Of a stretch of DNA of 59,921 nt, positions 23,333 through 40,435 are shown piece by piece. The notes below the pieces were generated by a model that had not been told where the DNA came from, made no database searches, and saw nothing but the letters and a program-made list of their open reading frames with translations. Both the position numbers and the translations under genes were made by a program. The stretch comes from Bacteroidales bacterium (GTDB lineage Bacteria > Bacteroidota > Bacteroidia > Bacteroidales > PUMT01). Location of the stretch: NCBI GenBank assembly GCA_007132715.1, contig SLOE01000101.1, positions 1 through 59,921 on the forward strand. The letters run 5' to 3'. Every line of letters starts with the position of its first letter. Position 1 is the first letter of the stretch.

Positions 23333-24217
23333 ATGGCCACCTATTCTATAAAAGACCTTGAGGAGCTTTCCGGGATAAAAGCCCATACCATAAGGATATG
23401 GGAGAAGAGGTACGGTATAGTCGTCCCGGCCCGGACAGATACAAATATCAGGCTGTACAGTGACAATGACCTTAAAAAACTGCTCAACATCTCCATACTT
23501 AACAGGCACGGATTGAAAATATCACATCTTGCCCGGATGGATGTAGAAGAGCTTAAAGAGAAGGTGATCCACATAACAAGGGAAACCGCAAACACCGGAT
23601 TACAGATAGATAACCTGATCATATCCATGCTTGAACTGGACGAATGGAAGTTTGACAAGATCCTGAACGATACCATAATAAAATTAGGTTTTGAAGAGAC
23701 CCTGGTACGACTGATGCATCCGTTTTTTGAAAAAATCGGGTTGCTGTGGCAAACCGGATCAATCAATCCCGCACAGGAGCACTTCGTGTCCAATCTTCTC
23801 CGGCAGAAACTGATAGTTGCAATTGACGGCCAGGCACCCGTACAAAGGAACAACCCGGTCAACTTCATACTTTTTCTGCACGAGAATGAATTTCACGAGT
23901 TGGGGCTTCTTTTCTATTCATATATCTTAAGAAAGAACGGTATTAAGGTTATATATTTGGGACAGGCCGTACCCTTTGAAGATCTGGAAAAGATCACAAA
24001 GATCCAGGAAGCCGAATATTTCCTTACATCCTTTACCACGGGAATTACTGAAAGTGCCCTTGTAAAATATCTCCGTAATCTGTCATCTTCCTTCCCAAAC
24101 CACAGAATTTTGTATACCGGACTGCAAACGGCAAAGATAAACGGGAACCTTCCCGGAAATCTTGTCAAAATTGAATCGGTAACCCACTTCAGGGAGTACA
24201 TAGGCTTAATCCGCTAG
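23333..24217 (+). CDS. MerR-family regulator with B12-binding domain (CarH/LitR-like photoreceptor candidate)
   Basis: A 294-residue protein. An N-terminal MerR winged-helix domain (residues 4-70; IKDLEELSGIKAHTIRIWEKRY) is followed by a cobalamin-cap domain with the CarH motif W-x9-EH (W139, E149-H150), and a Rossmann-type B12-binding domain with ExHxxG (E186-F-H188-E-L-G191), where H188 would be the lower cobalt ligand. In CarH this arrangement senses light through adenosylcobalamin: dark tetramers repress and light breaks the tetramer. All three key positions are retained, so B12 binding is plausible; light response is inference. An ECF sigma gene lies 329 bp downstream on the same strand. 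ATG at 23333. Confidence 0.85.
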   Translation: MATYSIKDLEELSGIKAHTIRIWEKRYGIVVPARTDTNIRLYSDNDLKKLLNISILNRHGLKISHLARMDVEELKEKVIHITRETANTGLQIDNLIISMLELDEWKFDKILNDTIIKLGFEETLVRLMHPFFEKIGLLWQTGSINPAQEHFVSNLLRQKLIVAIDGQAPVQRNNPVNFILFLHENEFHELGLLFYSYILRKNGIKVIYLGQAVPFEDLEKITKIQEAEYFLTSFTTGITESALVKYLRNLSSSFPNHRILYTGLQTAKINGNLPGNLVKIESVTHFREYIGLIR

Positions 24218-24395
24218 ACTATAAACCATCCTGTCTGCTTTACAATCGCTCAAGGCCCATTCAGGAAAGATGATATTGCTTACCGGTCAAACTTATACTG
24301 GCCCCGGTTTTCTTTTAACAATATCCTGATATAAGCGGCCCTGATAAACGCATGTACGAATTGTTGTTTACTTTTTATTATTTTCTATTAATCAT

Positions 24396-24428
24396 TTTGT
24401 TATTTTTATTCATTCTATTTTACTTTTG
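24396..24428 (+). promoter_or_regulatory. Distal consensus promoter of the ECF sigma gene
   Basis: TTTG at 24396-24399, a 21-bp spacer and TACTTTTG at 24421-24428 fit the Bacteroidota housekeeping promoter. Predicted leader is about 110 nt. Confidence 0.6.
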
Positions 24429-24482
24429 TGCAGTCATTTACAGCTTATTTAACATTTATTTAGACTTTTTATTTATAAAATA

Positions 24483-24514
24483 TTTGGACACTGTTCATTT
24501 TGTGCTTATATTTG
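24483..24514 (+). promoter_or_regulatory. Proximal consensus promoter of the ECF sigma gene
   Basis: TTTG at 24483-24486, a 20-bp spacer and TATATTTG at 24507-24514 fit the consensus fully. The predicted start is near 24520, giving a leader of about 25 nt. Confidence 0.65.
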
Positions 24515-24546
24515 TTAAACATTTGTAACCTAAAAACTGAACAACA

Positions 24547-25062
24547 ATGACTGCAATAGAATTCAACCATCAGCTCGTAAACCTCGAAAAAAATCTTGAA
24601 AGGTTTGCATACAGCCTTACCTCCAACCAGGAAGATGCAAGAGACCTTGTTCAGGAAACATTTCTGAAGGCATTAACATACAGGGAACAATTTACAGACC
24701 AGTCTAATTTAAAAGCCTGGACATTCACTATTTTGAAGAATACCTTCATAAACAATTACAGGAAGGCTGTAAAACAGAATACAACGTTTGACAATACAAA
24801 AGACCTGTATTTTCTAAACAAAGCCGGCGAGTCGGCCGAGTCAAAACCTGAAGGTAATATCTCACTCGAGGAGATCAACAAAAAGGTTGAAGAACTTGAA
24901 GACGAGTTTAAAACCCCATTCAAAATGCATACTTCAGGCTACAAGTACAAGGAGATCGCCGAAGAGATGGATCTGAACATAGGGACCGTGAAAAGCAGAA
25001 TATTCTTCAGCAGGAAAAAACTGATGAAAGCACTCGAAGATTACAACCCGATCAAGCAATGA
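24547..25062 (+). CDS. ECF-type RNA polymerase sigma factor
   Basis: A 171-residue sigma-70 family protein with only regions 2 and 4, the ECF layout. Region 2 spans about 10-75 (NQEDARDLVQETFLKAL, AWTFTILKNTFINNYRK); region 4 spans about 112-165 (FKMHTSGYKYKEIAEEM, IGTVKSRIFFSRKKLMKAL). No anti-sigma gene is adjacent and no membrane segment is present, so it is not a classic FecI/FecR pair. This type, with the GYKYKEIAE motif, is widespread in Bacteroidota. Two housekeeping promoters precede it. The CarH-like regulator just upstream could control it; this is inference from position. ATG at 24547. Confidence 0.9.
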   Translation: MTAIEFNHQLVNLEKNLERFAYSLTSNQEDARDLVQETFLKALTYREQFTDQSNLKAWTFTILKNTFINNYRKAVKQNTTFDNTKDLYFLNKAGESAESKPEGNISLEEINKKVEELEDEFKTPFKMHTSGYKYKEIAEEMDLNIGTVKSRIFFSRKKLMKALEDYNPIKQ

Positions 25063-26265: not shown

Positions 26266-29200
26266 ATGCAAACAACTGGAAAAATATTGCGAAACTACCG
26301 GATGCTCTTTCTGGCCTTGCTGCTTGTTGCCTGTGGTACTGTAATTGATATCAACAGGCACGTTCTGGATGAAAAACGGATCAATGCCACGCATTTCCAA
26401 TCAGTACTTGATGCCAAAATCAGGTCGGCGGCAGAAATTCTGGAAACTGCAGGGCAGAGACTGACTTCCGGTACTCCGGCCCGGGTTATAAGCGAATATG
26501 CTGAAGAGTATGATGGGATTTACAGGAATGACGGGCTGATAATACTTGGTTACAGGGAGGGAGATCTTGTATTCTGGAACAGCAATGTACTTCCTGTTGA
26601 CCTGAACCGAATGCCGGAATGGAAACAGAATGAGCTGATCAATCCCGGAAACGGGTGGTATGTGGTGATCAGGCATCAAATGGATGATGCCATCACACTC
26701 CTGGGGCTGATATTGGTCAGGCATGATTATGTTTTTGAAAATGAGTTCCTTGTAAATGACTTCCATGATGATTTCAGAATATATCCCGAAGCTGAACTAA
26801 GTACGGAGAAAAAGGGCACACATGCAATATTTTCCCCTTCAGGAGAATTTCTGTTCTCCATTGCCCCCCCCTCCTCTCCACCTCATGCCAAAACATTTGC
26901 AATCATCGCATGCTGCCTTTATTTAGCAGGCATAATATTCTTGTTTCTCTTTCTCCACAGAAGTTTCAACCGCATGAGATTCGGGTCAAATGCATCAAAA
27001 AACTCCTTGCTTGTGCTGACCATAATTGCTTTGGCAGCATTGAGACTTGGAATGCTTGAAACGGGATTCCCGCAACTCTTCAGGGAGTTCTCAATCTTTC
27101 AGCCCCACCTGTATGCAAAGTCTTCCCTGTTTCCCTCCCTGGGTGATCTTCTGATGAATACTGCCCTGATATTTTTTATATCAATTTTCTTTACATCGCA
27201 TTTCAAGGTTATTGACAGGGAGACCAAACCATGCAGGACCAAGAGCCTGACGTGGGTTTTCGCCCTCTCCCTGCTTCTTTCAGGGTTCATGTTTCTTTTT
27301 CATTACATATTCTCAGGACTTATTTATAATTCGAACATTCAGCTTGAGGTCCATAATTTCTTCTACCTTAACCGTTACAGCCTGGTCGCATACCTTACAC
27401 TTGCGATGCTTCTGGGTTCAGTTGTACTGTTTACCGACAAGGTCGTTTTTCTTGCATCAACACTTGTAGGCGTCAGGACATTCCTGGCAATATTTCTCAT
27501 GTCATTTGCCGGAGGTTTTGCTGTCTACAAGACAATTGGCGAGCAGATAAACATATATGCGCTGTTATTTTTTATTGTACTAACCTTCAGCATGACAGGT
27601 ATACGCTACTTCAAATACAGGTATACGTACTCCCTCCACCTTTTCCTTGTATTGCTCGTTTCCCTTTTCTCCCTTGCATTTATAACCTCCAGCAGCAGCA
27701 AAAAGGAAAAGGGTGTAAGACAGGTTATTGTAATGAACCTGGCTAATGAAAGAGACCAGGTGGCTGAATTCCTGTTCGAGGAGATTGAATACAGGATGGG
27801 GCGGGACAGCTTCCTGATAAACACTTTATCAGGCATGTATTATGAGGATCATGAGCTGTATAACTATTTAGAGACTAACTACTTCAGTGGTTATTTCAGG
27901 AAATATGAATTGCAGGTAGCTCCATGCGGGCATGACTTTGACCTGTGGCTCGAAGATGTAGGAGAGCTGGTGGATTGTTATGGTTTCTTTTATGAAATGG
28001 CAGACGAACATGGCATACCAATCAGCAGGAATTCGGGGTTCTACTTCCTTGACAACCTGAACGGAAGGATTAGCTACCTTGGAATGATCCTGTTCGAATT
28101 TGATGACTATCCATGGGAAAAGACTCTGTTCATCTCACTTGACAGCAAACTGCTGAGTGACCAGCTGGGCTACCCCGAGCTTCTTCTTGAAGGCAAATTT
28201 TCCAGATCCCCTTCTGCTACCCAGTACTCAAATGCAAAGTATAACCAGGGGCAGCTCATTACGCGAACAGGCACGTATTCCTATCCGCTCAGGCTTCATT
28301 TAGATACTGAAAGTGACTACCAGATGGATTTTGTACGGGAAGGGGGCTATGAACACCTTACCTACAGAGTTGACGACGACAATGTTATAGTAGTAAGCAA
28401 ACCGCTCACAACCACCATCGACCTTATTACATCTTTTTCATACAGCTTTGCATTCTTTTACCTTTTGTACGGGCTTGCACTGCTTGCAGGCAAATATCCT
28501 CCCAGGCTGAAGAAGCTGCAGGTCAACTTCAAGAACAAGATCAAATTCTCAATGATCGGGGTTCTGCTTTTATCCCTCGTAATTATCGGTGCCGGCACGG
28601 TCTATTACAACATAATGCAATTTGAAAACAAGCAATTTGAGAATATTACCGAAAAGATACAATCGGTGCTGATTGAACTTGAATACCGGCTGGGCATTGA
28701 AAGGGAACTTTCACCGGATATGAAGTACTACGTGACTGAACTGCTGATACAATTCTCGAATGTATTTTACACAGACATCAACCTGTATGATATTGAAGGT
28801 AACCTTTATGCCTCTTCACGGCCCGAGGTGTTTGATCTTGGCCTCACGGGAGAGAAAATGAACCCTGTTGCCTATTCGGAGATGGTAATAAACAATAATG
28901 CACGTTTTGTGCACAGTGAGTCAATCAGCAGCCTCTCCTTCCTTTCGGCTTATGTACCCTTCACCAATACGAACAACGAAATACTCGCATACCTTAACCT
29001 GCCATATTTTACGAGGCACTACATACTCACAAAAGAGATATATACCCTGGTGGTTGCCGTTGCCAACATCTATGCCGTACTGATACTGATCACGATCCTG
29101 ATCGCCGTAATTGTATCAAATACCATCACCAAACCCCTGCAACTCATACAGGACAAACTCCGCGAACTGTCATTGGGCAGAAAAAACGAACAGATAGATT

Positions 29201-30009
29201 ATGAAAGTGACGATGAGATAGGCAGTCTTATTAGGGAATACAACAGAATGGTCGAGGAGCTCGAAAACAGTGCCGGTATTCTGGCCAGGTCAGAACGGGA
29301 GAGTGCCTGGCGTGAAATGGCCAAACAGATAGCACACGAGATCAAAAATCCGCTCACACCTATGAAACTGAGTATCCAGCATCTTCAGAGAGCCTGGGAG
29401 GACAAGACAGACAATTGGGAAGAGGTCCTAAAAAAAACAACCGGGAACCTGGTTGAGCAGATTGACCATCTCTCATCTATTGCAACTGCATTTTCCCATT
29501 TTGCAAAACTGCCCGGTGCAGTCAGGGAACCGGTCAATATTACTGAGACCATAAAAAACGTATCCGGATTATTCTCCAATTCAGGTAATATAAATATCGA
29601 TCTCAGGCTTAACGGGAATGAAGACCTGCACGTAATCTCCGACCGTATGCAGCTCAACCGCATACTTGTAAATCTTCTTAAAAACTCCACCCAGGCCATT
29701 CCCAAAAGCCGGAGAGGAGCAATAACAATCGAGCTCAAAAGGGAGGAAGGTATGGCTCTTGTTGAGATAACCGATAACGGGGAGGGTATTCACCCCTCCA
29801 TAAAGGACAAGATGTTTACCCCATACTTCACATCCAAGTCAGGTGGTACGGGACTGGGACTCGCAATAGTAAAGAATATCGCAGAACAGTATGGAGGTTC
29901 GGTAGGGTTCTTGAGTGAATTCAAAAAAGGCAGTTGCTTCTGGTTCAGATTGCCCCTGGCTACTCCCGAAAATATGGAGGCCGGATCGGTGCAGGATGAT
30001 AATATGTAA
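26266..30009 (+). CDS. Large multi-pass sensor histidine kinase (NtrY-like core), orphan
   Basis: A 1247-residue kinase, far larger than ordinary sensors. N-terminal membrane helix (about 10-27), an extracytoplasmic segment to about 205, a cluster of about eight membrane helices (210-473), a second extracytoplasmic domain (about 475-720), two further helices (about 722-742 and 760-782), a third extracytoplasmic domain (about 785-925), a last helix (927-950), HAMP (about 952-1003), a HisKA domain with the phospho-acceptor His1024 in AHEIKNPLTPMKLSIQHL, and HATPase_c (about 1115-1235; DNGEGI, GTGLGLAIVKNIAEQYGG). The core resembles NtrY/NtrB kinases. No response regulator is adjacent. Signal unknown. 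ATG at 26266. Confidence 0.88.
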   Translation: MQTTGKILRNYRMLFLALLLVACGTVIDINRHVLDEKRINATHFQSVLDAKIRSAAEILETAGQRLTSGTPARVISEYAEEYDGIYRNDGLIILGYREGDLVFWNSNVLPVDLNRMPEWKQNELINPGNGWYVVIRHQMDDAITLLGLILVRHDYVFENEFLVNDFHDDFRIYPEAELSTEKKGTHAIFSPSGEFLFSIAPPSSPPHAKTFAIIACCLYLAGIIFLFLFLHRSFNRMRFGSNASKNSLLVLTIIALAALRLGMLETGFPQLFREFSIFQPHLYAKSSLFPSLGDLLMNTALIFFISIFFTSHFKVIDRETKPCRTKSLTWVFALSLLLSGFMFLFHYIFSGLIYNSNIQLEVHNFFYLNRYSLVAYLTLAMLLGSVVLFTDKVVFLASTLVGVRTFLAIFLMSFAGGFAVYKTIGEQINIYALLFFIVLTFSMTGIRYFKYRYTYSLHLFLVLLVSLFSLAFITSSSSKKEKGVRQVIVMNLANERDQVAEFLFEEIEYRMGRDSFLINTLSGMYYEDHELYNYLETNYFSGYFRKYELQVAPCGHDFDLWLEDVGELVDCYGFFYEMADEHGIPISRNSGFYFLDNLNGRISYLGMILFEFDDYPWEKTLFISLDSKLLSDQLGYPELLLEGKFSRSPSATQYSNAKYNQGQLITRTGTYSYPLRLHLDTESDYQMDFVREGGYEHLTYRVDDDNVIVVSKPLTTTIDLITSFSYSFAFFYLLYGLALLAGKYPPRLKKLQVNFKNKIKFSMIGVLLLSLVIIGAGTVYYNIMQFENKQFENITEKIQSVLIELEYRLGIERELSPDMKYYVTELLIQFSNVFYTDINLYDIEGNLYASSRPEVFDLGLTGEKMNPVAYSEMVINNNARFVHSESISSLSFLSAYVPFTNTNNEILAYLNLPYFTRHYILTKEIYTLVVAVANIYAVLILITILIAVIVSNTITKPLQLIQDKLRELSLGRKNEQIDYESDDEIGSLIREYNRMVEELENSAGILARSERESAWREMAKQIAHEIKNPLTPMKLSIQHLQRAWEDKTDNWEEVLKKTTGNLVEQIDHLSSIATAFSHFAKLPGAVREPVNITETIKNVSGLFSNSGNINIDLRLNGNEDLHVISDRMQLNRILVNLLKNSTQAIPKSRRGAITIELKREEGMALVEITDNGEGIHPSIKDKMFTPYFTSKSGGTGLGLAIVKNIAEQYGGSVGFLSEFKKGSCFWFRLPLATPENMEAGSVQDDNM

Positions 30010-30158: not shown

Positions 30159-33100
30159 GTGTTCGGGAAATTTACCAGTGTAGCCATTAATACGGTCATT
30201 AGAAAGGAAGCAACAAAAACCCTGCAATTACTCCTGCTGACGGTTTTATTTTTTTCCGTTGCACAGCATCTTCATTCACAGGCAGGAATATCCGGCACAA
30301 TCAATGATTATGCCGCTGTTGAGTCGGTTGAAAACAACCAGTCAGTTACTGTTAAGGACGCCTCGTTATTCCAGCCCAGGGACACGGTACTGCTGATCCA
30401 GATGAAAGGGCTCGGCATCCTTACCAGTCCCCCGGCAGACTACGGGAAACAGCAGAACATCAACAATGCCGGTAATTATGAATTCCTGATAATCAGTGAA
30501 ATTACCGGGAACACCATAACCTTCACAAGGGAGTTCCTCAAAGAGTATTCAGCCGTTGAAACTTTGCAGCTTGTGCGGGTAAGAGGGTATGAAAATGTAA
30601 CCGTTACAGGCCCACTTACTGCAATGCCCTGGGATGGGGAAAAAGGAGGGATCGTCGCACTTATCGTAACAAACACCCTTTATCTTGAAGATAACATAGA
30701 CCTTTCGGCAGCAGGATTTAAAGGTCCGGAGCCGGTGATTATCAGCAATGAGGTATGCGCAGCTTCCGACCCCGGAACATACAGCGCCCTTTCTTTCCCT
30801 GAAGGTTCTGACAAGGCCGGCCGGAAGGGTGAAGGTTCGGCAACATATTATATTGTTGATACGGATAATGTCCTCCTTGACGATCAATTCGCAAAAGGTA
30901 AAGGTCGCTTCGCCACAGGAGGAGGGGGTGGTAACGGACTCTTCTCCGGAGGAGGGGGTGGAGCCAATTTCGGTCAGGGAGGTTTCGGGGGAAATGAAAC
31001 GGGAACCTGCAGCGATCCGGGTTTTGATACAGGTGGTGCCGGTGGTTACTGGTTGAGGGATCAGCTTTTCGACGCAATGGCCAATTTCAGGAACAGGTTA
31101 TATATGGCAGGAGCGGGAGGAGGCTCAACAGGCTCAGCCGAAAGGGAAGCCACGAGAGGCGGAAGTGGAGGCGGAATGGTCATAATTGTGGCAAACTATA
31201 TCGAAGGAAGTGATGAGACTGCTATCATAGCCGATGGTGAAACAATTACCGGCATCGCTACCGCGGGTGCGGGTGGTGGTGGCGGCGGCGGAACCATAGT
31301 GGCATCGATCGATCACTACAGGGGAGTTATCAATATGTACGCACGGGGAGGAAAAGGTGGTGATGTAGACCATCCCGACATGGGTGGTCCCGGTGGCGGT
31401 GGCGGTGGCGGAGTAATAATTTATTCAGGACCCTCCCTCCCCGGAGAGGTAAACACTGTAGTGCTGCCCGGCCCGAGCGGGACAAACACTATCCAGAATG
31501 ACCCTAACGGATCAACCATAGGCACCCCGGGAGGCCTGATAGAACAGCTTGAGGTCTCCCTTAACGGGATACTTTTCAACGGCATACGGACAGCAAGACT
31601 TACAATATGTGAGGAGGATATTCCCGGCACACTGGAAGGTACAAGGCCCAGGGGAGGCGAAAGGCCCTATGAGTTCGCCTGGCTCAGACGTCCCGCAGGA
31701 GATACCGACTGGGTCTTGATAACCGGGGAAGACGGGCAGGATTATCAACCCGGGCCGCTGACAGCATCTACTGAATTCATGAGAATTGTAGAAGACAAGG
31801 ATTTCCCCCCGGTAATAGATTCAAGTAATATATTAAGAATTGCCGTTCAGCCGAAGATATTGGGCAATGTTATATCCGACCACCAAACCATTTGTGCAGG
31901 TGAACAGCCCGGGCGACTTGACGGTGACATTCCTGTCCAGGGCGGCACAGGTACGTTTGAATATAACTGGAACAGCTATACTGAAGAGAGCCGGCAGTGG
32001 ACAGAGGTGGAGGAAAACAACGGGGGTGCTGACTACCTGCCTCCCCCACTGGTTGACACCACACTTTTTGTCAGGGTAGCAACTTCGGGAGTTTGCATTG
32101 ATACCTCAAATATTGTGGCTGTAGATGTACATCCTGAAATACGCAACAACCTTCTGGATGATGACCAGACAATATGCCACGGCGACGCGCCCGACGGCAT
32201 ATCAGCTCCCCTTGGCCTGACAGGTGGTGTTGGTGAGGGATCTTACATCTATTCATGGGAGACGGATCAGGATGGTAGCTGGAACCCGGTCAGCGGAGAA
32301 TGGACATCCCCGGTTTATTCTCCCGGTCCCCTCACAGAAACATCACGTTACCGCAGAATCGTGGAATCCGGTGAATGCCTTGATACAAGCCCGCCGCACA
32401 CAGTAACAGTACTTCCCCTCATATCGGGCAATTCAATATCTGAAAACCAGGTCATTTGTTATATGGCAGCTCCTGAACTGTTTGAGGGCAGTGACCCTGA
32501 GGGTGGTGACGGCATTTTCAGTTACCGGTGGGAGATCTCGGCCGGAAACTCACCATGGGTGACAGCAGAGGGCAATCCGGATGAAAGGGATTACATGTCC
32601 CCGCCCCTTTCAGATACAACCTTTTTCAGAAGAATTGTCCTCAGCGGAAAGAATGATGCATGCAGGGATACAAGCAATATCACGGTTGCTGAATTTCATC
32701 CCCTTTCATACGGCAGAATTACCGATATAACCGATACCATTTGTAACGGCGAGCAGATTGATCTGACCTTCACATTGAACGGGGAGTTTCCCATGGAACT
32801 TGTTTACACCGACGGAACGCATTTATTTACAGCCGAAGGGGTTTCTTCGCCCGACTTCAGTGCGGCAGTAACACCGTCAACCCCTGATTCGTCAGATTAT
32901 TCATACACCTTTTACAGCCTGGTTGACGGGTTTGGCTGTTCAGTCCCCGAAAAACATCTTGCCGGATCAGTCAGTGCCAGGGTCTATGCCTTCCCTGAAC
33001 CGGATCCCGGGACAGGAGGCGATGTTTGCGGACCCGCGTTCAGGCTTGACGCAGCCCCGACTCTTGGCAGGGGTATCTGGGAAATATCATCAGGTGACGC

Positions 33101-33755
33101 AACCTTCAGTCCCGGCCCTTCAAACCCCGGGGCAACGGTTACGGTAGAAGGGTACGGCACATATACCCTGACGTGGACCGAGACCAACTGGAGATGCCGG
33201 GCAGACAACAATATCATGGTGACTTTTTACGAACAGCCTGAGACCGCCTTCGCAGGAGAAGACCAGGAATACTATTACACATTTGAAACCCTCCTTGGTG
33301 CCGAACTGCCCCCGGGCATGCCGGAGGCCTATGGAATATGGGAAGTCATTGAAGGGGATGCGAACATTGTTTTTCCCGACAGCCCCGGTACAGAAGTGAC
33401 CGGACTGGGCTTTGGAGAGAACATCTTCTCATGGACCGTATATAACGGGGTATGCCAGCCTGTATCAGACATGGTAACAATATTTATCAGGGATCTTGAT
33501 GCCCCTACCGGATTCTCACCGAACAACAGCGGCTTCAACGACACTTTTATTATCAGGGGACTGGAAAATTCGACGACCAATGAGCTTACAATATTCAACA
33601 GGCAGGGTAATGTCGTATTCAGGAGCAACAATTACATGAACGACTGGGACGGAAGAAACAACAGCGGCGTACGCCTTCCCGAAGACACATATTACTATAT
33701 TATCAGCGTCGACAACAAATATACATACAAGGGTTTCATAGTTTTAAGGCGATAA
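30159..33755 (+). CDS. Large secreted adhesin-like protein with gliding-motility C-terminal domain (T9SS substrate)
   Basis: A 1198-residue exported protein. It has a GTG start and a signal peptide ending near HSQAG; a domain with SVTVKDASLFQPRDTVLLIQMKG; a Gly-rich region (residues about 250-420) with several five- and six-Gly runs; then about four tandem repeats of about 95 residues (from about 480, 574, 666 and 762), each with a conserved pattern of a QTIC-like start, GG, YxW, PxL and DTSN; and finally a CHU_C/gliding-motility-associated C-terminal domain (about 1110-1198: FSPNNSGFNDTFIIRGLEN ... LPEDTYYYIISVDNKYTYKG). That tail targets proteins to T9SS and the cell surface. A PorP/SprF gene follows after 10 bp, the usual partner. 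Ligand is unknown. Confidence 0.88.
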   Translation: MFGKFTSVAINTVIRKEATKTLQLLLLTVLFFSVAQHLHSQAGISGTINDYAAVESVENNQSVTVKDASLFQPRDTVLLIQMKGLGILTSPPADYGKQQNINNAGNYEFLIISEITGNTITFTREFLKEYSAVETLQLVRVRGYENVTVTGPLTAMPWDGEKGGIVALIVTNTLYLEDNIDLSAAGFKGPEPVIISNEVCAASDPGTYSALSFPEGSDKAGRKGEGSATYYIVDTDNVLLDDQFAKGKGRFATGGGGGNGLFSGGGGGANFGQGGFGGNETGTCSDPGFDTGGAGGYWLRDQLFDAMANFRNRLYMAGAGGGSTGSAEREATRGGSGGGMVIIVANYIEGSDETAIIADGETITGIATAGAGGGGGGGTIVASIDHYRGVINMYARGGKGGDVDHPDMGGPGGGGGGGVIIYSGPSLPGEVNTVVLPGPSGTNTIQNDPNGSTIGTPGGLIEQLEVSLNGILFNGIRTARLTICEEDIPGTLEGTRPRGGERPYEFAWLRRPAGDTDWVLITGEDGQDYQPGPLTASTEFMRIVEDKDFPPVIDSSNILRIAVQPKILGNVISDHQTICAGEQPGRLDGDIPVQGGTGTFEYNWNSYTEESRQWTEVEENNGGADYLPPPLVDTTLFVRVATSGVCIDTSNIVAVDVHPEIRNNLLDDDQTICHGDAPDGISAPLGLTGGVGEGSYIYSWETDQDGSWNPVSGEWTSPVYSPGPLTETSRYRRIVESGECLDTSPPHTVTVLPLISGNSISENQVICYMAAPELFEGSDPEGGDGIFSYRWEISAGNSPWVTAEGNPDERDYMSPPLSDTTFFRRIVLSGKNDACRDTSNITVAEFHPLSYGRITDITDTICNGEQIDLTFTLNGEFPMELVYTDGTHLFTAEGVSSPDFSAAVTPSTPDSSDYSYTFYSLVDGFGCSVPEKHLAGSVSARVYAFPEPDPGTGGDVCGPAFRLDAAPTLGRGIWEISSGDATFSPGPSNPGATVTVEGYGTYTLTWTETNWRCRADNNIMVTFYEQPETAFAGEDQEYYYTFETLLGAELPPGMPEAYGIWEVIEGDANIVFPDSPGTEVTGLGFGENIFSWTVYNGVCQPVSDMVTIFIRDLDAPTGFSPNNSGFNDTFIIRGLENSTTNELTIFNRQGNVVFRSNNYMNDWDGRNNSGVRLPEDTYYYIISVDNKYTYKGFIVLRR

Positions 33756-33765
33756 ATCAATTCAA

Positions 33766-34677
33766 TTGAAGATAATTACCGCTATATTGATCTTTTTCAT
33801 AGCATTTTCCGGACTGAATGCACAGCACCTTTTCCCGGTTTACAGCCAGTATATGCTGAACGGACTGGCGCTGAACCCAGCCTATGCAGGAAGCCGCGAT
33901 GTTTTCAACATAACACTGGGTTACAGGAACCAGTGGGTTGGTTTTGAAGGTGCCCCGGTATCGCAAACACTCAGCATGCACGCCCCGATGAGGAATGAAA
34001 ACGTAGCCCTGGGCATTTTCCTCAACAATGAACAGATTGATGTAAGGAATAATACCAGCCTCTATTTTAATTATGCCTACAGGATACCTGTCGGCAGTGG
34101 ACGGCTGGCACTGGGACTCAAGGCCGGAGGTATCAGCAGAAGCGCCAACTGGAGCCGGATATCATTGCATGATCCCGGCGACATTGTTTTCAGTGAACCG
34201 GCAACGCATGACATGCTTCCGAATATCGGATTTGGCGTTTATTACTATACCGGAAGGTTTTTCCTGGGAGCATCAGTACCGCACTTCCTGAGTGACAGCA
34301 CAAGGAACGGGAAGGCTGTTTTATATCATGATTACGGAAACTACAATTACCTCTTGACCTCGGGTGTTGTTATCGGAAGCGGAGTGGTCAAGATCAAGCC
34401 CAGTTTCCTCGTCAAGTACAATGAAAACAACCCGGTCCAGCTTGACGCCAACCTCTCTTTTATCCTGGGGGATCTTATATGGATTGGCGCATCATACAGG
34501 ATTGAGGATGCACTGGTCGGACTGGTAAAGATCCAGATTAACGACAGGCTGCGGCTGGGTTATACATACGACTACTCACTGGGACGGCTCAGCAGCTATC
34601 ACAACGGCTCCCATGAAGTGGCACTTATATATGATTTCAGGTTCAGGGTTAGTGCTGTTAACCCCCGATACTTTTGA
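33766..34677 (+). CDS. PorP/SprF-family type IX secretion membrane protein
   Basis: A 303-residue outer-membrane beta-barrel protein. After a signal peptide (MKIITAILIFFIAFSGLNAQ) comes the family hallmark PVYSQYMLNGLALNPAYAGSRD. PorP/SprF proteins work with T9SS substrates that carry the gliding-motility C-terminal domain and are nearly always encoded next to one, as here. Start is a TTG at 33766, which gives the expected complete signal peptide; there is no upstream ATG in frame. The next gene starts two bases after its stop. Confidence 0.9.
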   Translation: MKIITAILIFFIAFSGLNAQHLFPVYSQYMLNGLALNPAYAGSRDVFNITLGYRNQWVGFEGAPVSQTLSMHAPMRNENVALGIFLNNEQIDVRNNTSLYFNYAYRIPVGSGRLALGLKAGGISRSANWSRISLHDPGDIVFSEPATHDMLPNIGFGVYYYTGRFFLGASVPHFLSDSTRNGKAVLYHDYGNYNYLLTSGVVIGSGVVKIKPSFLVKYNENNPVQLDANLSFILGDLIWIGASYRIEDALVGLVKIQINDRLRLGYTYDYSLGRLSSYHNGSHEVALIYDFRFRVSAVNPRYF

Positions 34678-34679
34678 CA

Positions 34680-36086
34680 ATGAGGACACCAATACTTATA
34701 CTGACGTTTATCCTCCTTGCCGGCGCAACTAATGATGCGCAACAGAATGACTTCTATGAAATCACACGCCTCCCCTTCACAACGGACAGGTTCGATGAAT
34801 TTGCACCGGCTTTTTACGACGACGGGATTGTTTTTACAACAAACCGCAGAATGGGTGTAATTGTTACGCGTACCACAGATGAAGGGGAGAATCTTTTCAA
34901 CATATATAAAACCTCCCGCAGGAGATCCGGCAGATGGGAGAATCCCGGGCTTCTGGACAGGAGACTGAAAAGCAATTATCATGACGGGCCAGTAAGTTTT
35001 TCACCAGACGGATCCACGATCTTTTTTACCAGGAATATTTCTGGCAGCAGCAGGGAAACCTCAAGACTGGGCATTTTCATGGCAGATTACTCCGGGGGCA
35101 GGTGGGCCAATATAAGACCCTTTCCCTATAACAGCGGCAACTACAACCTGGCACACCCAACCATCAGCAGCGACGGCAGGACCCTGTATTTTGCAAGCGA
35201 CATGACCGGAGGATATGGTGGAATGGACATTTATGCCTCAACCCTCCAGGCATACAGCTGGTCTCCTCCTGTCAACCTCGGCAGCGAGGTAAATTCAGCC
35301 GGCGATGAAGTCTTTCCCTATGTGCACCAGGGGGGAAGGCTCTACTTCTCCTCCAACAGGACAAACGGGGAGAATCTTGACCTCTATTACACCTTCCGGC
35401 GGGAAGAAAACTGGCAGACACCCGTTAAAATGCCCGCCCCATTCAATTCAGAATATGACGACTTCGGCTTCATTGCCGACAGGGAGCTCTCCAGCGGCTA
35501 CTTCTCATCAAACAGGGAGGGGACCGACAACATTTACTCTTTTATCTCAACATTCCCTCTGTTCACAGATTGTGAACCGATACGGGAGGAGCAGCTCTGC
35601 TTTGTTTTTTATGAGCAGAGAGCTGCAAATGTTGACACCACGACCCTTTACCTGTTGTGGGACATGGGCGACGGTACCAGGATAAGGGGACTGGAAGCGG
35701 AGCACTGTTTCAGTGAGTTGGGGACATATACCGTCAGGCTCGATGTAATTGATGTCATTACCGGAGAGGCTCAGTCCAATGTTGCATTTTACCACTTCAC
35801 CACCCCCAGGGTTGAACAGCCCTATATCAATGCCCCTGATACGGTCTTTGCGGGACAGCAAATCAGCATTGATGCCTCTGATACTTACCTGCGCAATTTC
35901 GACATTGATGAGTTCTACTGGGAACTGGGCGACGGCACAAAAACTGCCGGGGAGATAATTAACCACACCTATGACTACCCGGGGACCTACGAAATTACCC
36001 TGGGAGTAATTTCTGACCCCAATTCCCCGTTAGGATACAGGAGGTCGTGTGTTTACAAAGAGATTGTGGTGCTTGAAAATCAATAG
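34680..36086 (+). CDS. Exported PD40 beta-propeller plus PKD-domain protein
   Basis: A 468-residue protein with a signal peptide (ILILTFILLAGATNDAQ). Residues about 20-290 contain repeated WD40-like PD40 blades (SFSPDGSTIFFTRN, TISSDGRTLYFASDMTGGYGGMDIYAS, GGRLYFSSNRTNGENLDLY, SSGYFSSNREGTDNIYSF). Two PKD domains follow (about 300-375, WDMGDGTRIRG; about 380-465, YWELGDGTKTAG). It resembles the periplasmic PD40/OmpA components of T9SS such as PorE but lacks an OmpA peptidoglycan-binding domain. The ATG at 34680 is chosen over a TTG at 34674 overlapping the porP stop. Probably part of the adhesin-PorP operon; exact role unknown. Confidence 0.78.
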   Translation: MRTPILILTFILLAGATNDAQQNDFYEITRLPFTTDRFDEFAPAFYDDGIVFTTNRRMGVIVTRTTDEGENLFNIYKTSRRRSGRWENPGLLDRRLKSNYHDGPVSFSPDGSTIFFTRNISGSSRETSRLGIFMADYSGGRWANIRPFPYNSGNYNLAHPTISSDGRTLYFASDMTGGYGGMDIYASTLQAYSWSPPVNLGSEVNSAGDEVFPYVHQGGRLYFSSNRTNGENLDLYYTFRREENWQTPVKMPAPFNSEYDDFGFIADRELSSGYFSSNREGTDNIYSFISTFPLFTDCEPIREEQLCFVFYEQRAANVDTTTLYLLWDMGDGTRIRGLEAEHCFSELGTYTVRLDVIDVITGEAQSNVAFYHFTTPRVEQPYINAPDTVFAGQQISIDASDTYLRNFDIDEFYWELGDGTKTAGEIINHTYDYPGTYEITLGVISDPNSPLGYRRSCVYKEIVVLENQ

Positions 36087-36295
36087 ATCAACCCAGTTAT
36101 TCCTGTTATTGCCACCTTGTTCCAGCCGGTAATTAAGGCCGGGCACGGTATTTGTTTGTATTCAGCCAGGATAGCTTAAGCAAGCTGTTTTATGCTGATG
36201 TTTGATCATGAAAAAAAGAAACTGTTTGGTAAATTTACCGTATAATTGACAATAGTTAATTTTATCCGATTCAAAAACCAATAGCATAGCGTACA

Positions 36296-37267
36296 ATGAG
36301 AAATCTGTCAATTCTGATAATCATGGGGCACTTACTCTTTTTTACGGCGCAATCACAGCCGGTTCCCGCCCCGGATGAAAACATACCCTGGCTGGTGACT
36401 TTCGGCGGTGATGCATGCCCTTCATGGGGTGATGACAATTTCACACAGACTTTCTTTTTCCTGATTCCTGAAGATCATACCGATCCGGTTTACATAAGAG
36501 TGTATAATCCGGTAACCGGAGGGCAGTATGACGAAATAAACGGGTACTGGAACACAAAAGTCAATTTTTCAGTATACGGGGGACCGGAGACCTGGTCACA
36601 TCCCGATGCACAGGGTACCGGTCCGGAAGGCAATTACCGTAGCGGCAACCAGCTTGCCTCAAGGACGTTCGGCTACGAGCCCGAATACGATGCCGCCTGG
36701 TACACTTTCGGCCCGTTCAATCCGATGGAGGGTGAATACGTGGAGAAGTTCCGCGGGAATGTATTCAAGATCATTGCCCAGGGAATAGAGGGTGATGACG
36801 GCAACATGTATCGCTATTTCCTCTCCACAAGCCCCGACCAGAACATACCCGTTGAAGGGGGAAACGCGTTTGCATACAGCTACACATTCAGGCTCTGGAA
36901 CGATCCCAGCCAGGTTTCCCATATCTATCCCTACATAGATGATGAAACAATCACCGTCGAGATCTCTAACTTTGACTGGGACTATGACGGTATTATCAGG
37001 CTGGTTTCGGTTGAGCGGCAGGGGCAGTTGCTGGATGTATCGGGCGATGATTACTGGGCGCAGAACAGGTTCACAATACTGCCCGGAGAGAGGGGTACCT
37101 CTCTTGACCTGCAGTTCCATAAACAGGCAACCCCGGTTATCAGGAACAACAACGTCGTGGTAACAATCCGCAACCAGTATGACCAGGCACTTCCGTTCTA
37201 CGTTATACCAATAGGAGGGGTTCCGCAGTACCAGTACAGCATCGGGGTAAGACCGGCAGGAAATTGA
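36296..37267 (+). CDS. Exported protein of unknown function, paired with the propeller-PP2C receptor
   Basis: A 323-residue protein I do not recognise. It has a signal peptide (ILIIMGHLLFFTAQSQ), no membrane helix afterwards, and is rich in aromatic residues, Gly, Asp and Pro (VTFGGDACPSWGDDNFTQTFFF; GNYRSGNQLASRTFG). The second half alternates short beta-strand-like segments (ITVEISNFDWDYDGIIRLV; VVTIRNQYDQALPFYVI), suggesting a beta-sandwich. There is a single Cys near the start of the mature part. The receptor gene starts 15 bp after it, so the two are almost certainly co-transcribed. It might supply the ligand or an accessory subunit for the receptor. ATG at 36296. Confidence 0.7.
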   Translation: MRNLSILIIMGHLLFFTAQSQPVPAPDENIPWLVTFGGDACPSWGDDNFTQTFFFLIPEDHTDPVYIRVYNPVTGGQYDEINGYWNTKVNFSVYGGPETWSHPDAQGTGPEGNYRSGNQLASRTFGYEPEYDAAWYTFGPFNPMEGEYVEKFRGNVFKIIAQGIEGDDGNMYRYFLSTSPDQNIPVEGGNAFAYSYTFRLWNDPSQVSHIYPYIDDETITVEISNFDWDYDGIIRLVSVERQGQLLDVSGDDYWAQNRFTILPGERGTSLDLQFHKQATPVIRNNNVVVTIRNQYDQALPFYVIPIGGVPQYQYSIGVRPAGN

Positions 37268-37282
37268 TAATCATAAAAGAAA

Positions 37283-40200
37283 ATGTATAAAATCGCGGAT
37301 TCATTTATCAGGCAGGCAGCCATTGCCGCAGTAATCGCATCTCTTTTTGCAATTTCCCTGCAGGCACAGGAATACCGCTTCAGGAACTACGGTATTGAAC
37401 AGGGACTACCACACCGGTTTGCCTATACCGTTGCACAGGATGAGTCAGGTTTTATCTGGGTGGGCACAAGTACCGGACTGGCAAGGTTTGACGGATTTGA
37501 TTTTGAGGTCAACCCTTTCGGGGACTCAATCCCGCCGGGCTTTACTGTAAGGAGCTTCAGGGATTCCCGTAACAGGATATGGTTCGGGTATAACAGCGGC
37601 GGCATAGCCGTTCTGTCCGGCAACAGGATAACCGTCCCCGATAACAAAGCGGTCAGGACAATGGTGACAGGCATTGCGGAAGACAGCCGGGGCAATATCC
37701 TGGTTGCATCACAGCAACACGGACTCCTAATAATAGATGATGATCTGAATACCTTTCACCACCAGGATATGTTCTCAGGAACGGCAATTACTTCCATGAC
37801 GGTAACAACCGATGGCCAACTGCTGACAGGGTCATTTGACGGATTGTATCTTTACAACTACTATCCGGGGAGCAGCCCTGAAAGAAAGGGAAAAATCGAA
37901 GGGCTGCCGGAGGTTGCCGTCTCTTTTCTTCTGCCTGATGATAACGGCGTTTTCGCCGGGACCAGGGGACGGGGACTTTTTTACATCTCAAAAGCTGAAG
38001 ACGGATCTTTTATTGCATCCAATGTGGGCGAAACCCTCGGGATCGGAAACACCATCATAGAATCCCTGGGGCGCGACCACACCGGCAATCTCCTTGTAAC
38101 CACCAGGGGAAACGGCGTTTACAGGATAAGCAACCTCTTAAGTGCAGAAGAGAAGGCAGAGATAAAGAATTTCACAACCGCCAACGGACTTCCATCGGAT
38201 ATTGTGCATCAGAGTTATGCCGACAGGGAAGGCAATTACTGGTTTGCAACGTTTGACGGACTGTCAATGCTGTCTGATGAATCGCTGAGTTTCATCAGAT
38301 CATTTGAAGAGCCTTTCGGCAATAATGTGCTTTCTGTATTTTCCGACAGCGAATACTTCTGGCTTGGAGGAGAAAGCGGATTGTTGAGAATATCGAGACT
38401 GACCGGCCAAAGGACTTTCATCGGCACCGGCAGGGGTCTTCCTTTCGACATGGTCACTGCAATTACCTGCTGCCATGAAAATAACATCTGGATCGGCACG
38501 GCTGAGAATGGTATTTATATGCTAAATACCGGAACCCTTTCGGCATCCCGTTTCCATTTTTCCTCAAACTCACTGGAAAACAGCATACATGACCTTGACC
38601 ACGAAAACGGTGTGCTGAGGGCTGCAACCAGCAGCGGCATTCTGGAATTTGACCTTAACGACGGAGAACGAAGAAGGCTCGGAACAGATGAAGGGATGCC
38701 CCATAACTTCATAAGAAGTGTCTTCACCGCCTCAGACGGCACAAAATGGGTGGCAACCAGGGGTAACAGGATTGTGGATGCAGAAAGCAGCAGGTTTGTC
38801 AGGATCGCCTCCATGGAGCTTGATTTCGTGGCCGTTACAGAAGATCATAACGGGAACCTGTGGGCTGCAACCAACGGAAACGGCCTTATTCATATTACAC
38901 AGGATACAGTGATCCAGATAACAACCAGCGAGGGACTGCACAGTAACTTCTGCTACAGCCTTATTACTGATGACCAGGGAAACCTCTGGGCAGGCCACAG
39001 GCTGGGTGTCAGCCGGATCAATCCTGAAACATACCATATAAGGACCTACAGTACTGAAAGCTCAGTGACGGGAGACTTCAACTTCAATGCAGCTCACCGC
39101 ACACAGGACGGTATACTGCTCTTTGGTACGAGTGACGGACTGGTAATATATGACAACTCAAAGGAGAAGGATACAGCCACATCACCGTTGTTGAATATCA
39201 CCTCGGTCCAGGTATCGGATGACCTGTATGAGAATATTGACCGCATCACGCTGCCTTACGGCAGCTACAGGGTCAGAATTGAATATACAGGACTGAGCTA
39301 TGCGGATCCGGAAAAGGTCCTGTACCAGTACAAGCTTGACGGCTATGACCTGGACTGGTCAGAACCGACCATGCAGCGATTTGCATATTATCCCAGACTG
39401 GATGACGGCAACTTCACATTCCTTGTCAGGGCCACAAACGCTGAGGGAGTTACCACCGAATACCCGGTTTCACTTCCTGTAAATATCGATAAACCGATCT
39501 GGAAAAAATGGTACTTCTTTCTGATTGTTGCCTCGCTGGCAGGCCTCATGCTCTTTCTTTTCATAAAGATCAGGGAGCGGAACCTGCGTATTGAAAAGGA
39601 GCGTATTGAAAGGGAGCTGGAGATAAGGACCCGGGAAGTTGTCGAGCAGAAAGCTGAGATTGAACATAAAAACAAGGACATTACCGACAGTATCAACTAT
39701 GCCCAGAGAATACAGGCAAGCATTCTCCCGCCCGTTTCGAAAATGTCTGAGAACTTCAGGGAGTCATTCGTATTTTACAAGCCCCGGGATATTGTGAGCG
39801 GCGACTTCTACTGGTTTGACAACGTAAATGGAAACAAGTTCCTTATTGTATGCGCAGATTCGACCGGTCACGGAGTTCCGGGTGCATTCATGTCGATGAT
39901 AGGTACAACCCTCATCAAGGATATATGCATGAGGGCTGATGTAAACTCTCCCTCCGACGTACTGGAAACGCTTGACAGGGAAGTAACAAGCACCCTGAAC
40001 CAGAATGTTGATCCTTCCGGCAAATCAACTGACGGGATGGACATTACCGTGTGCGAATTTGACATCAATACACGGTATGTCCGTTTTGCCTCTGCAATGC
40101 GGCCAATAATGATGTACCACAAAGGGGAGCTTATGTATATCAGGGGAAGCCGCAACTCTATCGGAGGCTACTTTACCGATCAAAAAGCTTTTGAAAACCA

Positions 40201-40435
40201 GGGATACCAGCTTGACCCCGGCGACATAATTTACCTGTTCAGCGATGGTTATCCCGATCAGTTCGGTGGCCCGCTGGGGAAGAAATTCAAAATGGTAAGA
40301 CTTAAGAACCTGCTGACCGACATTTGCAGTAAACCCATGAATGAACAGCATGATCATATACGCAACAGTTTCAATCTCTGGAAAGGGGACCATGAACAGG
40401 TTGATGATGTATTGTTCATGGGTATAAAGGTATAG
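37283..40435 (+). CDS. Transmembrane receptor: two-component-type beta-propeller ectodomain plus SpoIIE/PP2C phosphatase
   Basis: A 1050-residue protein. Signal peptide (about 1-28), then a long periplasmic region of Reg_prop repeats (e.g. EYRFRNYGIEQGLPHRFAYT, DESGFIWVGTSTGLARFDG, GNLWAATNGNGLIH, GNLWAGHRLGVSRI), a Y_Y_Y domain (about 640-735; VLYQYKLDGYDLDWSEP), one membrane helix (about 738-760), a coiled coil (about 760-800; RNLRIEKERIERELE), and a PP2C/SpoIIE phosphatase domain (about 800-1050) with SGDFYW, ADSTGHGVPGAFMSM and YLFSDGYPDQFGG as metal/catalytic motifs. In the usual layout this ectodomain is joined to a histidine kinase; here it is joined to a Ser/Thr phosphatase. It probably dephosphorylates a cytoplasmic target after sensing a polymer or ligand outside. 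ATG at 37283. Confidence 0.88.
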   Translation: MYKIADSFIRQAAIAAVIASLFAISLQAQEYRFRNYGIEQGLPHRFAYTVAQDESGFIWVGTSTGLARFDGFDFEVNPFGDSIPPGFTVRSFRDSRNRIWFGYNSGGIAVLSGNRITVPDNKAVRTMVTGIAEDSRGNILVASQQHGLLIIDDDLNTFHHQDMFSGTAITSMTVTTDGQLLTGSFDGLYLYNYYPGSSPERKGKIEGLPEVAVSFLLPDDNGVFAGTRGRGLFYISKAEDGSFIASNVGETLGIGNTIIESLGRDHTGNLLVTTRGNGVYRISNLLSAEEKAEIKNFTTANGLPSDIVHQSYADREGNYWFATFDGLSMLSDESLSFIRSFEEPFGNNVLSVFSDSEYFWLGGESGLLRISRLTGQRTFIGTGRGLPFDMVTAITCCHENNIWIGTAENGIYMLNTGTLSASRFHFSSNSLENSIHDLDHENGVLRAATSSGILEFDLNDGERRRLGTDEGMPHNFIRSVFTASDGTKWVATRGNRIVDAESSRFVRIASMELDFVAVTEDHNGNLWAATNGNGLIHITQDTVIQITTSEGLHSNFCYSLITDDQGNLWAGHRLGVSRINPETYHIRTYSTESSVTGDFNFNAAHRTQDGILLFGTSDGLVIYDNSKEKDTATSPLLNITSVQVSDDLYENIDRITLPYGSYRVRIEYTGLSYADPEKVLYQYKLDGYDLDWSEPTMQRFAYYPRLDDGNFTFLVRATNAEGVTTEYPVSLPVNIDKPIWKKWYFFLIVASLAGLMLFLFIKIRERNLRIEKERIERELEIRTREVVEQKAEIEHKNKDITDSINYAQRIQASILPPVSKMSENFRESFVFYKPRDIVSGDFYWFDNVNGNKFLIVCADSTGHGVPGAFMSMIGTTLIKDICMRADVNSPSDVLETLDREVTSTLNQNVDPSGKSTDGMDITVCEFDINTRYVRFASAMRPIMMYHKGELMYIRGSRNSIGGYFTDQKAFENQGYQLDPGDIIYLFSDGYPDQFGGPLGKKFKMVRLKNLLTDICSKPMNEQHDHIRNSFNLWKGDHEQVDDVLFMGIKV

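Follow-up and report, generated by a model that had tools for sequence, protein, structure and literature searches.

A five-gene Bacteroidia locus that joins a type-B T9SS adhesin module to a propeller-phosphatase receptor: a candidate trans-envelope signalling unit

To our knowledge, the type-B adhesins of the T9SS have been described as gliding adhesins or static anchors, and no route by which they report to the cell interior is known. The PG1035-PorP-PorE complex is known experimentally (PMC9143113), and both the formation of PorP-PorE-type-B complexes and the specificity of the shuttle have been shown by experiment (PMC9143113, PMC12618676); in F. johnsoniae, operons that combine a type-B protein, its shuttle and a PorE-like protein are proposed to encode static anchors (PMC12618676). 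PorA of P. gingivalis, a surface protein with a T9SS CTD, influences inner-membrane signalling via an unknown mediator (PMC7712824). In P. aeruginosa, SiaA and SiaB are a phosphatase/kinase pair that acts on SiaC (PMC7647112).

The locus described here lies in a window of 59,921 nucleotides (the whole stretch of DNA analysed) from a member of the Bacteroidales. Its five genes, denoted A to E, form a co-inherited unit in many Bacteroidia that is real, conserved and apparently undescribed: no description of a type-B module combined with a propeller-phosphatase receptor was found in the open-licence literature. The parts are of known kinds, and it is their combination, together with the D protein family, that is new as far as our searches reach.

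Gene content and co-inheritance of the locus

The five open reading frames all lie on the plus strand at positions 30159-40435 of the window and are separated by 10 bp (A-B), -4 bp (B-C), 209 bp (C-D) and 15 bp (D-E), which confirms the original prediction of five same-strand genes with small gaps except for about 209 bp ahead of an unrecognised protein. Gene A (30159..33755) encodes a Sec-exported surface protein of 1198 aa that consists of an AgmC-like glycine-rich N-terminus (AgmC_N, 184 bits, under the family cut-off of 275), repeats, and a type-B T9SS sorting domain at residues 1114-1198 (CHU_C of Pfam, 84.9 bits, 4e-24; TIGR04131, 58.9 bits against a cut-off of 35). Gene B (33766..34677, 303 aa) encodes an outer-membrane shuttle of the PorP/SprF family (PF11751, 249.9 bits; TIGR03519, 252 bits); the TIGR04131 and PF11751 matches bear out the earlier identification of these two genes as a T9SS adhesin and its PorP/SprF partner. 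The C protein (34674-36086, with the ATG at 34680 being the likelier start; about 468 aa) is a PorE-like periplasmic PD40 propeller with two PKD domains; it matches the PorE model over the propeller region only (179 bits, the full-length cut-off being 600), and in the window it lacks an OmpA domain. The remaining two genes encode an exported tandem beta-sandwich protein, D (36296..37267, 323 aa), and a propeller-PP2C receptor, E (37283..40435, 1050 aa), which are discussed below.

On inspection of the sequences, all five proteins have apparent Sec signal peptides followed by Q (SQAG in A, NAQH in B, DAQQ in C, SQPVP in D and QAQE in E), a pattern that fits the Q-rule for signal peptidase I of Bacteroidota (PMC5837995) and argues against lipoproteins. 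The T9SS core is encoded in the genome (SprA_N, 631 bits; GldK, GldL, GldM and GldN, above cut-offs), and T9SS-dependent display of A on the cell surface is predicted. Between rlmH and the unit, at 26266-30009, lies a gene for a histidine kinase of 1247 residues, an unusual one with numerous apparent TM segments; it adjoins the unit only in that part of the order to which the window belongs and was rejected as a member.

A scan of genome contigs with D as the query yielded 34 loci, most of them with A-B-C-D-E in this order. Searches of the order, class and phylum with an alignment of D, together with 87 fetched regions, brought the set to 113 non-redundant D loci, of which 78 have complete context; the genes were labelled from stop-to-stop frames. 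Across these 78 loci, E lies directly 3' of D in 71 (with PP2C recognisable in 68 of them) and C lies upstream of D in 57. The adhesin/PorP pair (type-B CTD plus PorP) is present upstream of D at 50 loci, and the full set, with E downstream and the type-B substrate and PorP upstream, at 49. For comparison, the genomes contain 7-21 PorP genes at genome sizes of 2.5-4.9 Mb, and a same-strand PorP is estimated to occur by chance within a few kb upstream of D at about 1% of loci, which puts the observed arrangement well beyond chance. Pairs of D and E without A, B and C account for 20 of the 78 loci, mostly in a few families, and C-D pairs without E are found at L031, L132 and L162. D-E is the tighter core of the unit, and some lineages can dispense with the adhesin module. 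In the D tree, loci with A-B-C comprise 57 of the 68 rows in the half that includes the window and 11 of the 45 rows in the other half. The order A-B-C-D-E is kept despite different flanking genes at L017, L024, L028, L032, L034 and L077; the L034 copy belongs to a cultured organism, Carboxylicivirga sp. A043.

The absence of the OmpA domain, which the original prediction had noted for the PD40-PKD protein, stands for the window but not as a property of the system: C carries an OmpA domain at L017, L025, L030, L077 and others, and among the 78 complete-context loci at no fewer than 13, which makes the lack of this domain in the window a trait of its lineage. A trade of OmpA loss in C for the gain of E was considered and rejected, loci with both being common (L017, L025, L077, L130 and L133).

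Both the receptor and the shuttle belong to dedicated lineages. D is present in 15 of the 119 genomes of the order, and 14 of these carry a match to E of at least 581 bits adjoining D, the fifteenth (G441) having an E gene interrupted by stops; the top E match among the 104 D-less genomes scores 462 bits. This bit threshold was picked after the data were seen, and the E tree serves as an independent check: the 50 E proteins that adjoin D form one clade, separated (SH-like support 100; FastTree) from 20 propeller-PP2C paralogs that were taken both from these genomes and from others. Among the 119 genomes, E orthologs are restricted to those that carry D. Likewise, the PorPs that adjoin D form essentially one clade (67 of 68 rows); the stray PorP comes from a rearranged locus, L111, and the apparent paralog inside the clade (L285) is the upstream PorP of that same locus. 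B is probably dedicated to A. With E and B as dedicated lineages, and with the last two genes of the unit found mostly together with adhesin/PorP pairs rather than apart from them, the five genes first grouped in the window hold up as a co-inherited unit rather than chance neighbours. Elsewhere, at L188:10495-12737 (G000:C144), three superoxide dismutase-like genes, recognised by sequence inspection only, lie in a row beside a PorP gene.

The D protein and its predicted contact with the receptor

D had been singled out as an unrecognised secreted protein and remains so: it has an SPI signal peptide, with Q21 invariant in the signal peptide region in keeping with the Q-rule, and no match in Pfam, NCBIfam or the PDB. 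As far as our searches reach, D represents a new family for which there is no Pfam or NCBIfam model. Given the signal peptide and the lack of a CTD or any other obvious TM segment, D is probably periplasmic. The AlphaFold2 model of D consists of two beta-sandwich domains (pLDDT 81, pTM 0.82) and matches only generic beta-sandwich folds, such as GOLD/SIDT1 and a collagen-binding domain, with a best Z of 8.3 (Foldseek, VIA-align). There are also weak fold matches to Ca-binding tandem sandwiches, and a DxDxDG-like motif is conserved in D. The single weak dockerin match, in 1 of 34 members, is at chance level.

The D and E genes are in the same frame, so that window positions 36296-39550, encompassing D and the periplasmic half of E, could be folded as one chain with the stops read through, using an alignment of 26 fused and 60+60 separate rows. 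The fused chain was modelled with a mean pLDDT of 91.9 and a pTM of 0.87, the expectation being about 0.67-0.69 if the domains were unplaced and about 0.90 if both were placed, so the predicted placement of D on E is confident. Residues 31-50 of D, which include the invariant segment W44-G45-D46, rise from a pLDDT of about 52 in D alone to 92-97 in the fusion with E, an increase that may come partly from the deeper alignment. By these models, it is quite likely that D binds E.

D-like domains are also found elsewhere in Bacteroidota, where they form the N-termini of large proteins (about 1,600 residues) that contain 10-15 PKD domains as well. The combination of a C protein that ends in PKD domains and a D-like domain fused to PKD arrays supports a link between C and D. 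Furthermore, D accompanies C where E is missing and accompanies E where C is missing (the 20 loci mentioned above), which makes D the common element and a likely adaptor. The genes for the PKD-array proteins (L078, L079, L080, L081, L082 and L084-L089) often neighbour those for LysM-FecR proteins and for HAMP adenylate cyclases or histidine kinases, and these loci possibly represent a second, larger signalling arrangement. At L031:10001-16703, one of the C-D pairs without E, a bacterial alpha-2-macroglobulin gene lies alongside on the opposite strand.

The 209-bp gap between C and D in the window contains a promoter-like element, GAAACTGTTT-N11-CGTATA (36218..36244, plus strand), located 78 nt ahead of the start codon of D; both its sequence and its spacing are retained among the closest relatives. 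By its spacing, the element resembles an ECF-sigma promoter and is a candidate for one, so that D-E may constitute a separate transcription unit in the window; many other lineages have almost no gap between C and D, or an overlap of the two, which makes co-transcription likely there. The strict form of the element has one match in genome G000 and none in the reversed control, and the looser form has 1-2 matches per genome in four family members; with so few matches, no regulon was seen, and the element was set aside as a regulon marker. At the f182 loci L150, L158, L159, L164 and L176, a variant of the element, GTAAC-N16/17-CGTA, lies about 95-100 nt ahead of D, and the lineages with this variant carry D-E without A-B-C. 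Within the window, at 23333-25062, a gene for a MerR regulator with a B12-binding domain is followed by an ECF sigma factor gene, an arrangement that resembles light- or cobalamin-responsive regulators.

The receptor phosphatase and a possible SiaC substrate

The E protein comprises a signal peptide, two periplasmic propellers followed by a Y_Y_Y domain, a TM segment at about residue 750, and a cytoplasmic PP2C domain at residues 771-1049; the Reg_prop repeats, Y_Y_Y and SpoIIE/PP2C domains detected with Pfam and NCBIfam profiles uphold its initial reading as a receptor with a periplasmic propeller and a cytoplasmic phosphatase. The periplasmic part is a BT4663-like double propeller with Y_Y_Y (TM about 0.7 to 4a2l). 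No cytoplasmic histidine kinase or response regulator was found in E, and the PP2C domain occupies that place. The linker and PP2C of E align with the PP2C chain of SiaA (6k4e) at 1e-34 over 273 residues, metal-binding Asp residues included, and of 89 E proteins, 87-88 retain Asp at the metal-site columns. The full-length SiaA model of NCBIfam gives 179.5 bits, under its cut-off of 700, the sensor half being unrelated.

Variations on this architecture occur in the vicinity of D and among the paralogs. At L122:6261-9434 (minus strand), the receptor that follows D carries a histidine kinase and not PP2C, that is, the same input pair with a different output. Ahead of the genes for a sister clade of propeller-PP2C proteins (L223, L224, L225, L226 and L233) lies a gene for a conserved, exported TPR-repeat protein, about 780 residues long; at L225, the member that was scanned, this protein also has a caspase-like domain.

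No SiaB or SiaC gene is found at the five-gene locus. The window genome contains three SiaC genes elsewhere, one of them paired with DUF6272/SiaB (L190), as well as several further SiaA-like phosphatases with SiaC as a possible substrate. In the order, where SiaB-SiaC pairs are widespread, SiaC is present in 51 of the 119 genomes, including all 15 with D, and its distribution follows that of strong PP2C matches: 48 genomes have both, 66 have neither, and 2 and 3 are discordant. At L231:839-5188 (G443), a paralogous propeller-PP2C gene is followed by SiaB (DUF6272) and SiaC in one operon. The SiaA-like PP2C domain, the co-occurrence of SiaC with PP2C, this operon and the precedent of SiaA/SiaB in P. 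aeruginosa, taken together, make it reasonable to infer that SiaC is the substrate of E. The near-perfect co-occurrence suggests, moreover, that SiaC is a target of many Bacteroidota propeller-PP2C receptors.

Proposed mechanism, alternatives and known systems

Our tentative preference is for an undescribed trans-envelope signalling unit in which the type-B adhesin serves as the surface input and is connected, via the shuttle, the PorE-like propeller and the D adaptor, to a propeller-phosphatase that drives a SiaB/SiaC switch. Under this scheme, the T9SS would secrete A, which its own shuttle, B, would retain at the cell surface, with C in the periplasm beneath B; soluble D would dock on the periplasmic propellers of E and bridge them to C or, alternatively, to B. 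Whether A binds a ligand or a surface, comes under tension or is successfully secreted, the resulting change in it would alter the D-E contact and thereby switch the cytoplasmic SiaA-like PP2C of E, which would dephosphorylate a SiaC-type phosphoprotein, in opposition to a SiaB-type kinase; the dephosphorylated protein would change the output of the partner switch, for example, in adhesion or biofilm behaviour. The direction we prefer is outside-in, with the receptor reading the state of the adhesin, as opposed to a phosphatase that regulates display. If this is the case, the unit offers a concrete candidate path from a T9SS surface protein to inner-membrane signalling, one that includes a conserved adaptor family: the cytoplasm would be informed of contact with a surface or of secretion of the adhesin, and trans-envelope signalling in Bacteroidota would gain a new class.

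Several points go against the trans-envelope reading. The placement of D on E comes from one fused chain; SiaB and SiaC are encoded away from the locus, and the genome has other SiaA-like phosphatases; D-E lacks A, B or C at 20 of the 78 loci and thus does not depend everywhere on the adhesin module; and in the clade of the window D-E has a promoter-like element of its own. The latter two points would be expected if D-E were a self-contained receptor in which D presents a small ligand (for instance, Ca2+, a glycan or an envelope fragment), with A-B-C upstream merely sharing the same conditions of use, and they are joined by the glycan binding of BT4663-type sensors and by the weak matches of D to Ca-binding tandem sandwiches with the DxDxDG-like motif. 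We nevertheless consider such a receptor rather unlikely: it gives no reason for the presence, in many families, of one and the same PorP lineage and a PorE-like protein next to D-E, for the persistence of D next to C after the loss of E, or for the fusion of D-like domains to PKD arrays elsewhere.

Signalling could also run inside-out, with E sensing the envelope via D and the phosphatase controlling expression or secretion of the adhesin, which corresponds to the regulated surface display of the original prediction. Regulators are commonly encoded close to their targets, and in Porphyromonas the T9SS genes respond to a signalling pathway, PorXY-SigP (PMC4800418, PMC8265659); PP2C/SiaC switches, however, act on proteins, no DNA-binding regulator is present within the unit, and the predicted D-E pair along with the C-D pairing points to physical coupling and not to gene control alone, which renders this direction improbable. 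About equally doubtful is a quality-control function, whereby D and E would watch the assembly or secretion of the type-B substrate and not an external cue. It would accord with the periplasmic location of D and C suggested by their signal peptides and lack of CTD, with the contact between PorE-like proteins and the shuttle (PMC9143113), and with adhesin N-termini that vary widely among loci while the CTD is kept, but a chaperone or protease output is not visible. Passive synteny of unrelated genes is very improbable: although the closest relatives keep the whole neighbourhood, including the histidine kinase, Der and Era, the block is kept with other flanks across many families, and the lineages of E, B and D are inherited together.

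The trans-envelope unit favoured here can be set against five described systems. The FecA-FecR pathway is an analogy in the mode of operation, an outer-membrane event being passed through the periplasm to an inner-membrane regulator, but there is no TonB-dependent receptor, FecR or sigma gene among the five genes. With the HTCS of the BT4663/BT3049 type, E shares the periplasmic double propeller and Y_Y_Y, whereas its output domain is PP2C in place of the histidine kinase, receiver and AraC, and a dedicated partner, D, is encoded just upstream. The linker and PP2C of E align end to end with the SiaA PP2C of the P. aeruginosa SiaABC(D) threonine phosphorylation switch, and the SiaB (DUF6272) and SiaC families are represented in the genome; in contrast, the sensor half of SiaA is unrelated to the E propellers, and SiaB and SiaC are encoded at other loci here. 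Genes A, B and C correspond in order and families to PG1035-PorP-PorE and Fjoh_3952-3951-3950, which are proposed static peptidoglycan anchors that act via the OmpA domain of PorE, whereas in the present unit D and the phosphatase receptor E are added, and C of the window lineage is without the OmpA domain. Finally, the PorA to PorXY-SigP route shares with the proposed mechanism the action of a surface T9SS CTD protein on an inner-membrane signalling protein; PorA acts on a histidine kinase/ECF pathway, whereas here a candidate mediator, D, and a receptor of another class are encoded beside the adhesin.
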